DNA of 64,000 bases, taken from an uncultured Chlorobiaceae bacterium (GTDB lineage Bacteria > Bacteroidota > Chlorobiia > Chlorobiales > Chlorobiaceae). The stretch covers positions 1 to 64,000 of the forward strand of contig CAITSZ010000011.1 in NCBI GenBank assembly GCA_903895195.1. Direction: 5' to 3'. The notes under the pieces are model-generated. The model was not told where the DNA came from. It did no database searches and saw nothing but the letters and a program-made list of their open reading frames with translations. Shown here piece after piece: positions 20,606-31,649 of this stretch; the first letter of the stretch is position 1, and every line of letters starts with the position of its first letter. The translations under genes and the position numbers were made by a program.

Positions 20606-21628
20606 ATGAGTAACTCGGATTTTGGCTGTCGAGTAGCGGTGTTTGGCGCAACCGGTCTTGTCGGACGCACAATGCTCAAGGTTCTCGAAGAGAGAAATTT
20701 TCCTGTAAGCGACATAGTTCCGCTTGCTTCCCCTCGCAGTGCCGGTCAGGTTGTGCTGTTCAAGGGGCGGGAGTTTATTATTCAGGTGCCTTCCAAAGAG
20801 GCCTTTAAAGGTGTCGATATAGCTCTTTTTTCTGCAGGAGCAGCTGCCAGTAAGGAGTGGGCGGCAATTGCCGCCAGAGAAGGTGCTGTCGTCATTGACA
20901 ATTCGTCTGCATTTCGAATGGATCCTGATGTTCCTCTCGTTGTGCCCGAGGTTAATCCTGGAGATATTTTCAAGGCTGACGGTACCCCTGAACATATTAT
21001 TGCCAATCCAAACTGTTCAACCATTCAGATGGTTGTGGTTCTCAAGCCGCTTCATGACCGCTTCGGTGTCAAGAGGGTTGTTGTGTCGACCTATCAGTCT
21101 GTTACAGGTAAAGGGAAGGTTGGACGCGATGCTCTTGAAAGTGAGCTTGCCGGTGAGAAGCAGGATGAATTTACCCATTTTCATCAGATAGCATTCAACG
21201 CCGTTCCGCAGATAGACGTGTTCACGGAGAACGGCTATACCAAGGAAGAGATGAAAATGGTGAATGAAACCCGGAAGATCATGGGAGATAACTCCATGAG
21301 TATTTCTCCAACAACGGTACGCATTCCGGTCTATGGTGGCCACGGCGAGTCCCTTAATATTGAACTCGAGCGCGATTTTGATATCGATGCAGTGCGTGAG
21401 CTTCTCAGTGCGTCACCAGGCATTATTCTTCAGGATGACCCTTCGGCGCGCATCTACCCCATGCCATTGACCTCGTATGAGCGCGACGAGGTTTTTGTAG
21501 GAAGGATTCGACGTGATTACTGGCACCCGCAGACTTTGAACATGTGGATTGTTGCCGACAACCTGAGAAAAGGAGCGGCAACCAATGCCGTTCAGATCGC
21601 CGAAGTTGTCAACGCTAAAAGAGTGTAG
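20606..21628 (+). CDS. asd: Aspartate-semialdehyde dehydrogenase
   Basis: This 340-residue protein has the NADP loop FGATGLVGRTMLKVL, the SPRSAGQ phosphate-binding region, VIDNSSAFRMDPDVPLVVPEVN, the catalytic cysteine in ANPNCSTIQM (near residue 135), and the VRIPVYGGHGESLNIE histidine motif. It makes aspartate semialdehyde for the lysine/diaminopimelate, threonine and methionine pathways. Its 3' end overlaps the convergent gene at 21615 by 14 bases. Confidence 0.97.
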   Translation: MSNSDFGCRVAVFGATGLVGRTMLKVLEERNFPVSDIVPLASPRSAGQVVLFKGREFIIQVPSKEAFKGVDIALFSAGAAASKEWAAIAAREGAVVIDNSSAFRMDPDVPLVVPEVNPGDIFKADGTPEHIIANPNCSTIQMVVVLKPLHDRFGVKRVVVSTYQSVTGKGKVGRDALESELAGEKQDEFTHFHQIAFNAVPQIDVFTENGYTKEEMKMVNETRKIMGDNSMSISPTTVRIPVYGGHGESLNIELERDFDIDAVRELLSASPGIILQDDPSARIYPMPLTSYERDEVFVGRIRRDYWHPQTLNMWIVADNLRKGAATNAVQIAEVVNAKRV

Positions 21629-22496
21629 TTTCTTTTTGTTTAGAAAGAGCCATCAGTGCCGCACTGATGGCTTTTACTGCCGACGCTGACGAGACGGAAA
21701 AACGTTGAGGATTGCTGATCGATATAGATGGCGGGATAGTGAGCGGTTTCAGAGCAATTGATGTCTCTTTGCCGATCAGTCCGGTGATAATCCTGTCGGC
21801 CATTGTTCCTGTAAGCTGCACGTAGGTTTCACAGCAGACCGGGTTGTCGAGCAGTTCCTTGATGGTGAAGTACTCTCTCTCCTCTTTATTTTTTACATGA
21901 TGGAACGAAAATTTTTCAATTTGTCCATTTCTTGATACCGTCAGGAGTACATAGTTTTTTTCAAGCTCAAGGATGACCTGCGGCTCTCCAGAGAGTTTAG
22001 AAAGGTGAAACAGCGGCAGCTGCGGCGACCCATTGAACACAATCTGATGATAGCCTGAAAAGTGTTCAGAAGCTCTTGTGCAGTGTTCAAGAGGATAGAA
22101 AAGCAGAAGGTGTTTTTTATGAGACCCGTTGCTTACCGTATCGCTGTAACCGGTATGGTCGCACCTGTATTGCTCGGGTTGTGCTAAAAAGTATCCGGCT
22201 TCAATCCTGCAGTACTCTTTACATTCATCAGGGTTTGCATCTATAGGAAAGTATGCCGGAAGGGGCAGGTACGTTCCCGGCTCAACACAGAGAGCAAGGT
22301 CTTCTTTCCCCCACTCTTTAAGGTGACGTTCAAGTTTTTTCAGAATGCGCCTCCCTTTGCCTGATGCGAGGTCGCTGAGGCCTAATGGAAAAGTTTTATA
22401 TGCACTCAGGCTGTATCCGGTGCTTCCAGAGGTTTTAAGCCTTACAACACTGCATTCTGTTGTGTTGATGGAGCATGCTATCTGGCTTTTGCTCAT
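21615..22496 (-). CDS. Conserved hypothetical protein, possible actin-like/DUF3822-type fold
   Basis: This 293-residue protein has no certain family. The beta-strand-rich N-terminal part (CSINTTECSVVRLK, DLALCVEPGTYLPLP), a GYHQIVFNGSPQLPLFHL segment and the later VILELEKNYVLLTVSRNGQIEKFSF resemble the two-lobed DUF3822/PilM-like layout. A function is not claimed. Its ATG overlaps the stop of the upstream comEA-like gene by one base (TAATG), so the two form a coupled unit. The 3' end contains a hairpin serving asd on the other strand. Confidence 0.6.
   Translation of the reverse strand: MSKSQIACSINTTECSVVRLKTSGSTGYSLSAYKTFPLGLSDLASGKGRRILKKLERHLKEWGKEDLALCVEPGTYLPLPAYFPIDANPDECKEYCRIEAGYFLAQPEQYRCDHTGYSDTVSNGSHKKHLLLFYPLEHCTRASEHFSGYHQIVFNGSPQLPLFHLSKLSGEPQVILELEKNYVLLTVSRNGQIEKFSFHHVKNKEEREYFTIKELLDNPVCCETYVQLTGTMADRIITGLIGKETSIALKPLTIPPSISISNPQRFSVSSASAVKAISAALMALSKQKETTLF
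21648..21675 (+). terminator. asd terminator embedded in the convergent gene's coding sequence
   Basis: A perfect 11-bp stem (21648-21658 with 21662-21672, 3-nt loop) is followed by a short T run. It lies 20 bases after the asd stop and inside the last codons of the minus-strand gene. Confidence 0.75.
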
Positions 22497-24386: not shown

Positions 24387-25760
24387 ATGTCGAACCACGA
24401 TATATTCGGGCTTGCGGCAGAAACGCCGCTGGTTCTTGTCAAACAGATGGCCCGTCACATCCTGCCTAAGGTTATGGCAAAGCTCGAGTACCTGAACCCG
24501 GCTTGTTCGCACTATTACCGTGTAGCATCTGCCCTCATCACTGATGCTGAAGAGCGCAAACAGATTTACCCAGGAATGACCCTTGTCGACTGGACGTTCG
24601 GCAACAGCGGGATTGCCTTGGCTATGGCCGGTGTGAGACGGGGGTACAAGCTGCTTCTGGCTGCACCTGATACAATTTCAAGAGAGAAGCAGGAGGTGCT
24701 CAGAGCTCTGGGTGCGGAACTCGTCATTACCCCATCTGACGCTCTGCCTGGAGAGCCCCGCAGCTGCATGAATGTCGCTGAAAGTCTCGTAAAAAGCATT
24801 TCCAACGCCTTTTTTACCGGCATGTTTAACAATCCTGTCAGTATAAAGGTGCATAGTGAAGCTACCGGCAGCGAAATTTTTCAACAGACAGAGGGTAAGG
24901 TTACTCATGTTTTTGTATCGATGGTCTCTGGTGCGATGGCTTCCGGTCTCGGTCGTTATTTGAAAGATAAAAATCCGAACATCAGCATCATAGGCGTTGA
25001 GTCACAGGGCTCTATTTATGCAAGCCTCCTGAAGGATGATAAACCCGGTAAACCGGTTTTTACTGAACTTGAGGAAATCGGTTCCCTGCAGCAATCGCTT
25101 CTCTGGGACCGCTCGGTCATAGATGAAATTATACAGGTGAGCGACTATGACGCATTTAACTGCGGGCGTGAGCTGTTAAGGGCTGAAGCTGTTTTTGCAG
25201 GCGGAGCCTCAGGCGCGGTTATGTCTGCAGCTCTGCAGGCAGGAGAGAAATATGGAGAGGACGATTGTGTTGTCGTGGTGATGAATGATTTTGGTGGCTA
25301 TTACCTGAGCAAGATGTATAGTGATGATTGGATGCGCAAGCGCGGCTTTTACCGCAAGGCGAAATCCGCTCTGGAACAGATTACGGCCGAGGATATTCTG
25401 CAGCTGAAAGCGCGCAGGGATCTGATTTTTGCATATCCCGAAAATACCCTTGCAGAAGTTTTCGAAATGATGAAGCAGAACGATGTTTCGCAGCTTCCCA
25501 TTGTTTCATACAACGCACCGATCGGCAGTATCAGTGAGAATAAAATTCTCTCGATTCTTATTGAAAACGATGAAGCGATGAACTCAAAAGTTGTCGGGTT
25601 CATGGAACAGCCGTTTTCAGTATGCAAACCTGAGGCTACGATTTCCGAATTATCCGACAAGCTGCAGCAAAGTGCCTCCGGAGTATTGATAAGTCTCTCT
25701 GATGGCAAGCTTCAACTTCTTACTAAATCAGATCTTATTGATGCCCTGACGCATAAGTGA
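24387..25760 (+). CDS. Cystathionine beta-synthase-like pseudoenzyme with C-terminal CBS domain pair
   Basis: This 457-residue protein has the full length and fold order of a CBS enzyme: a cysteine-synthase-like part (about 1-330) and a tandem CBS-domain part (about 335-457). Key cofactor sites are altered. Where active members have SVKDR with the PLP lysine, this one has SHYYR (41-45), with tyrosine at the lysine position. The substrate/PLP loop TSGNTG is TFGNSG (70-75), the glycine-rich GTGGT phosphate loop is VSGAM (near 180), and the GGSAGS pyridine-nitrogen serine region is GGASGA (272-277). There is no stop or frameshift, so it is not a decayed gene. It is probably a non-catalytic protein or has a new chemistry; the CBS pair probably binds an adenosine ligand. 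An ORFan regulator role is inferred. It diverges from alr. Confidence 0.85.
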   Translation: MSNHDIFGLAAETPLVLVKQMARHILPKVMAKLEYLNPACSHYYRVASALITDAEERKQIYPGMTLVDWTFGNSGIALAMAGVRRGYKLLLAAPDTISREKQEVLRALGAELVITPSDALPGEPRSCMNVAESLVKSISNAFFTGMFNNPVSIKVHSEATGSEIFQQTEGKVTHVFVSMVSGAMASGLGRYLKDKNPNISIIGVESQGSIYASLLKDDKPGKPVFTELEEIGSLQQSLLWDRSVIDEIIQVSDYDAFNCGRELLRAEAVFAGGASGAVMSAALQAGEKYGEDDCVVVVMNDFGGYYLSKMYSDDWMRKRGFYRKAKSALEQITAEDILQLKARRDLIFAYPENTLAEVFEMMKQNDVSQLPIVSYNAPIGSISENKILSILIENDEAMNSKVVGFMEQPFSVCKPEATISELSDKLQQSASGVLISLSDGKLQLLTKSDLIDALTHK

Positions 25761-25972: not shown

Positions 25973-26530
25973 ATGAAGGTAGAGTCCAAAAAAAGGCAGT
26001 TCATTTTAGAGGGTAAGATCAAGGCTTGCTTCTGTGAAGGATGCGGTCAGGTTACCGACAAGACGTTTGTTGGTGAATGGATTCCGAGTGATAAGCCGAA
26101 GGACGATGATTTTCTGACGACAGTTCAGATAAAAAAGCAAAAAGACAGCAAGAGTGCTGGAAGTGATTTGCCGCCCGCTGCTGAAAACCAGTACTGGATT
26201 CGCTGTTCGGAGTGCAATCAGGTATTTCTTCTCAGGGAATGGCAGATACAGATTGACAGGGAGGTCAGCCCGGAAGAGTTGAAGGCCGAAGATTGTCAGA
26301 TATACTCACCTCATGGCATTTACGCCAAAGGTGACGCGCTCTTTCATAAGGCGCTTGGAGAAGTTGGAGTTATCAGGGAAAAGCAGGCTACGGGCAGTGG
26401 AGCTTTCGTCATTATTGTCGAATTTGCAAAAAGCGGAAGAAAACAGCTTCTTGAAAATGTGCAGCTGATTTCAAAAGAAAAAAATTCGGAGAGCATTACA
26501 GATATAATTAAATTAAAACTTAAACGTTGA
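25973..26530 (+). CDS. Zinc-ribbon protein with Tudor/KOW-like C-terminal domain, function unknown
   Basis: This 185-residue protein has an N-terminal C-x-C-x2-C cluster (CFCEGCGQ) and a second pair (CSECNQ) about 65 residues later, together suggesting a zinc ribbon interrupted by a Lys-rich linker. The C-terminal 70 residues (IYAKGDALFHKALGEVGVI, IVEFAKSGRKQLL) look like the small beta-barrel seen at the end of UvrD/PcrA helicases, which binds nucleic acid or RNA polymerase. That resemblance is from pattern only. It lies 24 bases before rpsU on the same strand, suggesting a link to ribosome or transcription functions. Confidence 0.65.
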   Translation: MKVESKKRQFILEGKIKACFCEGCGQVTDKTFVGEWIPSDKPKDDDFLTTVQIKKQKDSKSAGSDLPPAAENQYWIRCSECNQVFLLREWQIQIDREVSPEELKAEDCQIYSPHGIYAKGDALFHKALGEVGVIREKQATGSGAFVIIVEFAKSGRKQLLENVQLISKEKNSESITDIIKLKLKR

Positions 26531-30721: not shown

Positions 30722-30947
30722 GAAATCTCCGGGGTTGCCAGGCAATGGGTTCGTTTTGTAAAAAAGATAAACAACATACCAGGTTCATCAAACCGGCTGC
30801 CGAAAGTGATGGCAGCTACTGATCGATCTTGTCAGGCTCATGGCAGTCAAAATAATATTTTCTGAACCCTTTGCTGTGTTGTTATTAATTTGTATTATTA
30901 GTGTGATAATAGTGTATTTATTCATCAACTCTTTTAATTTAATTGGC

Positions 30948-31649
30948 ATGCAAAAAATTATTATTACCGACTTTACCCGTTTCTCTAATCCCAAGATTGT
31001 TGGTACCGCAGGAATTGATTTGACAACAGGCCAATGCATTCGGCCCATGCCACACCTGAATACAGTATTTTGTAAAAGTGAAAACATTGTTCCCGGTGCT
31101 ATTCTGAAGGGAGAATTTACTCCGGTTCAAAATATTGCAGCTCCACATCAGGAAGATATGTCTTATCAAAATCTATCATGTATCGGGCTCTGTACTTCAT
31201 CGGAGTTTAAGCTTGCGTTGAATGCCGGATTATGTGATACCGTTGAAAATGGATTTCAGATTGCATTGGCGGACAAGCAAAAGCACATTCCAATAAGTCA
31301 TTCTATAGGTAAGTCGATAATTACAATAAAAGTACAACCAGATAAAATAGGTATTGTTGAAGATGCATACTCTCAAAAGAAAATAAAGATAAATTTTGCT
31401 GATAATTCAGGTAGGGCTTTTAAATATATCTCTATAACTGACCTTGGATTTTATGATTTTGCCGAGAGTATTCAGCTGTCGAATGAGTTGGATACCCTGA
31501 ACGCCTTTATTTGCTCGCAGTCTGAAATCTATCTGCGTTTAGGCTTGAGCAAAGCATGGGACAATGGCAAAGTAAATGGGTATTGGATGCAGGTGAACGG
31601 ATTATATACATTTCCGGATTACCATCGTGAAATCAGGCGTTACCGCTGA
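30948..31649 (+). CDS. Uncharacterised protein, dual OB-like domain
   Basis: This protein has about 233 residues from the ATG at 30948. The frame also opens at an ATG at 30840 that would add a hydrophobic segment (AVLLLICIISVIIVYLF); the AT-rich composition there makes it doubtful. The sequence QKIIITDFTRFSNPKIVGTAG with TGQCIRPM resembles the dual OB-fold domain family found in many accessory gene contexts. No catalytic motif is seen. Its base composition is AT-richer than its neighbours, which may indicate recent transfer. Confidence 0.55.
   Translation: MQKIIITDFTRFSNPKIVGTAGIDLTTGQCIRPMPHLNTVFCKSENIVPGAILKGEFTPVQNIAAPHQEDMSYQNLSCIGLCTSSEFKLALNAGLCDTVENGFQIALADKQKHIPISHSIGKSIITIKVQPDKIGIVEDAYSQKKIKINFADNSGRAFKYISITDLGFYDFAESIQLSNELDTLNAFICSQSEIYLRLGLSKAWDNGKVNGYWMQVNGLYTFPDYHREIRRYR

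Follow-up and report, generated by a model that had tools for sequence, protein, structure and literature searches.

The window, the whole 64,000-nucleotide stretch of DNA analyzed, comes from an uncultured member of the Chlorobiaceae, and carries an uninterrupted reading frame, running from ATG to stop, for a protein of 457 residues related to cystathionine beta-synthase (CBS); the intact frame of 457 codons claimed by the original prediction was borne out. Pfam assigns residues 10-299 of this protein to a PALP domain (E 2.6e-56), and also detects a CBS domain. The order of the domains, a PALP core followed by C-terminal tandem CBS domains, is that of cystathionine beta-synthases, as indicated by the Pfam matches and by the full-length match to CBS structures, and the closest solved relative by sequence is the CBS of M. 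tuberculosis. The NCBIfam equivalog model for CBS, TIGR01137, spans the whole protein, which scores 333.6 bits and does not reach the cut-off of 510. Two canonical enzymes from sister families also score below the cut-off (468 and 480 bits), and thus the cut-off alone does not separate the protein found in the window, hereafter pseudo-CBS, from canonical enzymes. The features of the gene are listed in Table 1.

Table 1. Coordinates in the window of the pseudo-CBS gene, of its domains, and of the residues discussed in the text.
Feature	Position	Strand	Support or remarks
Pseudo-cystathionine beta-synthase CDS	24387..25760	+	457 aa; Pfam PALP + CBS; TIGR01137 333.6 bits
PALP (fold type II) core domain, aa 10-299	24414..25283	+	Pfam + predicted-core superposition
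SHYYR, aa 41-45; Tyr43 replaces the Schiff-base lysine (canonical S-I-K-D-R)	24507..24521	+	Orthologue alignment
TFGNSG, aa 70-75; altered Asn/substrate-carboxylate loop (canonical T-A/S-GNTG)	24594..24611	+	Alignment
VSGAM, aa 180-184; altered PLP-phosphate loop (canonical GTGGT)	24924..24938	+	Orthologue alignment
Ala274, canonical Ser of GGSSG (here GGASG); not the pyridine-N residue	25206..25208	+	Alignment
Phe302, at the presumed pyridine-N position (hCBS Ser349 equivalent)	25290..25292	+	Alignment
Linker + tandem CBS (Bateman) module, aa 323-457; most conserved part in Chlorobiaceae	25353..25757	+	87% identity
Gln369, equivalent to the AdoMet-contact Gln445 of human CBS	25491..25493	+	VSQ in 65/65 orthologues
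T446-K-S-D449, equivalent to T535/D538 of human CBS	25722..25733	+	T 63/65, D 65/65

Pseudo-CBS resides among housekeeping genes (recA, dus, asd, alr, aroA), which do not name a partner for it, and the gene upstream is divergent. No riboswitch, such as a SAM riboswitch, was detected by Rfam upstream of the gene, matches found by a promoter scan of the same region are not above chance, and a search of plasmids yielded distant relatives only (33-34% identity). Three less known genes are found in the surroundings. The first (g25973, 25973-26530, plus strand) encodes an uncharacterized protein of 185 aa with two CxxC pairs, zinc-ribbon-like, and no Pfam or NCBIfam match; it adjoins aroA in Chlorobiaceae, in several genomes of the sister families and in G086 and G087, and represents a nameless family conserved order-wide. 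The second (21615-22496, minus strand) encodes a protein of 293 aa with no Pfam match, which is always accompanied by comEA-like and alr genes, yet diverges far more rapidly than the proteins encoded nearby (in distant Chlorobiaceae, 37% identity vs. 86% for RecA). The third (30840-31649, plus strand), found at the same site in some relatives only, encodes a protein of 269 aa which is hydrophobic in a stretch near its N-terminus and weakly matches the Pfam DuOB (dual OB-containing) domain (28 bits, cut-off 27).

Pseudo-CBS was monitored in 86 Chlorobiaceae genomes. Full-length orthologues, 66-100% identical, are found in 76 genomes, all with an open frame, and partial ones in three more; the same family was recovered by scanning the contigs of the genomes. 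No match was found in the remaining seven genomes, all of which also miss the adjoining gene g25973. They show therefore no specific loss of pseudo-CBS, and it is simpler to suppose that the assemblies are incomplete, or that the entire region was lost, than to invoke true gene loss. The residue counts given below refer to the 65 distinct full-length proteins of the family, some positions being counted over 64.

The residues holding the PLP cofactor in canonical enzymes are replaced throughout this set. The replacement of the PLP lysine by tyrosine, and of the GTGGT phosphate loop by VSGAM, both noticed by the original prediction, were confirmed: position 43 is Tyr in 64 orthologues, Asp in one and Lys in none, and the phosphate loop, V180-M184 in the window protein, reads xSGAM in most of the 65 proteins and GTGGT in none. 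The Asn loop TFGNSG, described at that time as kept, is indeed present in the window protein, but Asn73 is conserved in just 48 of 64 orthologues (T, S or D in the others), and position 71 is mostly occupied by a bulky residue, Phe or Tyr; Ser74 is invariant where canonical enzymes have Thr. The serine said to be changed to alanine near the pyridine nitrogen had been misplaced. Ala274 corresponds to a serine of the GGSSG motif (Ala in 63/65 orthologues, Ser in all ten sister-family enzymes), and the pyridine-nitrogen position is that of Phe302, which we take to be equivalent to human CBS Ser349 and CysK Ser272, the residues of the PDS/TDTG loop contacting the pyridine nitrogen. Position 302 is Phe in 64/64 orthologues, the DF motif is found in 65/65, and the sister enzymes of the Chlorobiales have Thr or Ser. 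As this loop position varies among canonical bacterial enzymes too (S, T, G, H or N), Phe302 stands out for its size and invariance, not for the loss of a universal serine. The positions of the canonical Asn145 and Gln146 are occupied by Gly and Met in the window protein.

The altered residues are conserved across the family, a point which the original prediction proposed to check, and chance, sequencing error, or a single lineage-specific mutation, is ruled out by the 65 orthologues lacking the lysine. As the attachment lysine, the phosphate loop and the carboxylate loop are all altered together, PLP chemistry is very unlikely, and the loss of PLP-dependent catalysis in the Chlorobiaceae protein is strongly supported, as far as sequences can tell. 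Retention of the overall CBS fold would be in line with an active enzyme in which PLP is bound in a noncanonical manner, without the lysine. This is highly improbable, the pyridine-nitrogen region being changed along with the other three elements, and no orthologue out of 65 featuring a Lys anywhere in positions 40-48. Residues D68, S74, A77, S181 and E205 are fixed in 65/65 orthologues, and, along with Y43 and F302, form a set invariant or nearly so in Chlorobiaceae. Sites invariant in canonical sisters are here fixed to another residue (Y43, D68, S74, A77, S181, E205), and a remodelled pocket is therefore favoured over drift.

All the canonical motifs are found outside the family. The ten orthologues identified in two sister families within the order (43-46% identity) all keep KDR, TAGNTG, GTGGT and TDTG or TDSG, and 20 orthologues from elsewhere in the Bacteroidota keep KDR, GNTG and GTGGT; the Schiff-base lysine, within S-x-K-D-R, is present in 10/10 and 20/20 proteins, respectively. 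Close relatives retaining the lysine, named by the original prediction as evidence against it, are found in other families of the order only, and never in Chlorobiaceae. The gene order CBS-g25973-aroA is common to the Chlorobiaceae locus and to six of the ten sister loci, and g25973 is found in two more. In the tree, all Chlorobiaceae proteins cluster in one clade (100/100) which adjoins the sister-family enzymes, on a long stem of 1.31 changes per site. Recent transfer is ruled out by the shared flanking genes and the tree. Because canonical motifs are found in sister families and other Bacteroidota, and the flanking genes are shared, it is simplest to assume that the cofactor site of a canonical CBS was lost a single time, in the Chlorobiaceae stem. 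The catalytic motif is thus lost across a whole clade stemming from an active ancestor, as in pseudoenzymes, the activity of the relatives being judged from their motifs. No CBS orthologue was found in the Chlorobiales family to which genomes G086 and G087 belong. In G087 (contig 49; L133 1525-3530, L139) alr and g25973 are about 435 bp apart, with no CBS in between, and the site is empty. As this family lacks the gene, pseudo-CBS is not needed in all related Chlorobiales.

Purifying selection continued after the loss of the motifs. In the pseudo-CBS clade, median dN/dS (pairwise NG86, 609 pairs) is 0.09 in the core and 0.042 in the CBS module; the corresponding values in canonical sisters, which come from five pairs only, are 0.056 and 0.073. 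Mean pairwise identity is 87% for the CBS module vs. 73% for the core in the pseudo-CBS clade, 64% vs. 77% in canonical sisters. The ratio of per-site divergence, CBS module to core, is accordingly 0.48 in the former (95% site-bootstrap interval 0.35-0.62) and 1.58 in the latter (1.29-1.92). When compared with the window over one common set of 34 loci, the CBS module is 90.6% identical, RecA 90.4%, AroA 79.6%, the core 76.5% and Alr 71.1%; by this measure the core is ordinarily, the CBS module exceptionally conserved. The usual pattern of constraint is reversed in Chlorobiaceae, where conservation is highest in the CBS pair, which evolves about as slowly as RecA.

Changes fixed family-wide, low dN/dS values and open frames all support the selected, non-catalytic retention of the gene originally proposed. 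A gene decaying toward loss, or a sequencing error, could be evoked by the lineage of G086 and G087, which lacks the gene, but this has practically no chance of being correct: frames are open in all 76 genomes with a full-length copy, dN/dS is below 0.1, and the CBS module is conserved like RecA. The dN/dS values and the intact frames rule out a decaying pseudogene. More deserving of attention is the notion that the remodelled pocket accommodates a different small molecule, or carries out a reaction that does not depend on PLP, the core being the working part of the protein. The many pocket positions newly fixed rather than drifting (the five found in 65/65 orthologues), and the dN/dS of the core, argue for this. 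Yet conservation of the core falls below that seen in canonical sisters, and far below that of the CBS module, and no new conserved constellation of catalytic appearance was identified, which leaves a working core decidedly improbable. The parts holding the cofactor were lost while the tail presumed to sense small molecules was kept almost as strictly as RecA; for this reason, the CBS homologue of Chlorobiaceae was probably converted from an enzyme into a regulator.

The fold was retained. The AlphaFold2 model, obtained with the family alignment, has a mean pLDDT of 89 and keeps the CBS fold, and CBS structures rank first in the Foldseek search made with it. The predicted core superposes on CBS-type catalytic cores with a target-normalized TM of 0.93-0.95 and an rmsd of 1.5-1.8 A. 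A canonical sister, modelled likewise, yields a similar Foldseek list. Both models give large rmsd values over their whole length, for which a variable position of the CBS module with respect to the core is the simplest explanation. The protein is a member of the CBS family by descent, but does not have the catalytic features that define a cystathionine beta-synthase.

Cysteine and homocysteine may be obtained by other means. The genome from which the window derives carries MetY, CysK and CysE genes clustered on contig 5 (CysE was called by inspection of its sequence only), a second CysK gene on contig 47, and two genes resembling cystathionine gamma-synthases/lyases. The lysine is intact in both CysK-type proteins. 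Given this CysE/CysK/MetY route, catalysis by CBS should be dispensable. The presence of two lysine-intact CysK-type genes also raises the possibility that the dead core of pseudo-CBS pairs, as a non-catalytic subunit, with one of these CysK paralogues, an active enzyme of fold type II, lending to it a regulator made of CBS domains; the lysine-less LCB1 subunit serving serine palmitoyltransferase provides a model. The core has indeed kept its fold and length, and is still under purifying selection, but it is only about 34-38% identical to these CysK proteins, the gene is not adjacent to cysK, and no canonical CBS is left in the genome to pair with. Such an association is on the whole unlikely.

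The ligand of the CBS module may be guessed from its human counterpart. AdoMet is bound in human CBS by Phe443, Gln445, Thr535 and Asp538 (PMC9232105). According to the alignment, three of the four residues are kept, as Q369, T446 and D449, and Phe443 is replaced by Val367; canonical sisters also have V or I at this position. The same motif is found in CBS pairs which bind AMP or ATP, hence adenosyl compounds as a class are better supported than AdoMet itself. The sensing of nucleotides or sulfur amino acids is plausible, and would fit both the conservation of the CBS pair and the retained AdoMet-contact residues.

The explanation regarded as best, and considered likely, is that the CBS of the Chlorobiaceae stem lost the PLP site and was retained as a regulatory pseudoenzyme, the CBS pair of which would bind an adenosyl ligand, the protein controlling a partner. 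The CBS module would bind AdoMet, or AMP/ATP, at the site corresponding to the AdoMet site of human CBS; binding would rearrange the dimer or tetramer of the CBS fold, after which the protein would bind and control its partner, the core acting as scaffold or partner-binding part. A plausible partner may be an enzyme of sulfur-amino-acid metabolism or one consuming AdoMet, for example CysE, CysK or MetY of the same genome. More tentatively, the PLP-free protein could be a dedicated sensor of AdoMet or adenine nucleotides, in which the CBS pair, constrained like RecA, reads the ligand, and the core, with its newly fixed pocket, has become a partner-binding or a second ligand-binding domain.

Known systems resemble pseudo-CBS in part. 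M. tuberculosis Rv1077 (PDB 7xnz) and human CBS (PDB 4coo/4pcu) have the same domain order, length and overall predicted fold, and the latter shares the three AdoMet-contact residues mentioned above. Unlike both, the Chlorobiaceae protein lacks the Schiff-base lysine and GTGGT, has an altered carboxylate loop, and has come to be constrained in its CBS module more than in its core. C. elegans CYSL-1, a CysK homologue turned into a regulator of the H2S response which binds EGL-9, is similarly a fold-type II, cysteine-synthase-like protein co-opted for signalling upon loss of biosynthetic activity (PMC5562914). CYSL-1, however, keeps a bisulfide-binding site, belongs to an unrelated lineage, and has a known partner. 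It is also not known to have CBS domains. The PLP lysine was lost, and a regulatory or structural role conserved, in LCB1/SPTLC1 of serine palmitoyltransferase and in the antizyme inhibitor as well, proteins of fold types I and III with known partners and no known CBS module. The mode of action may be similar to that of AcuB, a Bateman-domain energy sensor of Bacilli in which the CBS pair, once loaded with its ligand, attaches to a partner enzyme and controls it (PMC13121692). By analogy, ligand-dependent rearrangement of the CBS-fold oligomer, followed by partner binding, would be the most likely mechanism; AcuB differs in having an ACT domain instead of the PALP core, and no homology is claimed outside the CBS pair. 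Full-text searches of open-licence papers did not retrieve any work dealing with a CBS pseudoenzyme, with the CBS of Chlorobium or Chlorobaculum, or with the protein described here.

It would be wrong to annotate pseudo-CBS as cystathionine beta-synthase, and to deduce from it that green sulfur bacteria perform reverse transsulfuration. Canonical sisters at the same locus provide a reference against which the inverted constraint on catalytic core and regulatory module can be quantified, and the protein would offer a natural experiment, a CBS-domain regulator freed from its enzyme. One genome of the family, G043, hosts on contig 44 (L114 4385-7023), in addition to pseudo-CBS, a canonical CBS gene overlapping a cystathionine gamma-lyase-like gene. 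The two form a reverse transsulfuration pair, which may be a transferred operon or contamination (4% in this genome). The coexistence of the two genes, if the canonical one is native, suggests that pseudo-CBS does not supply CBS activity.
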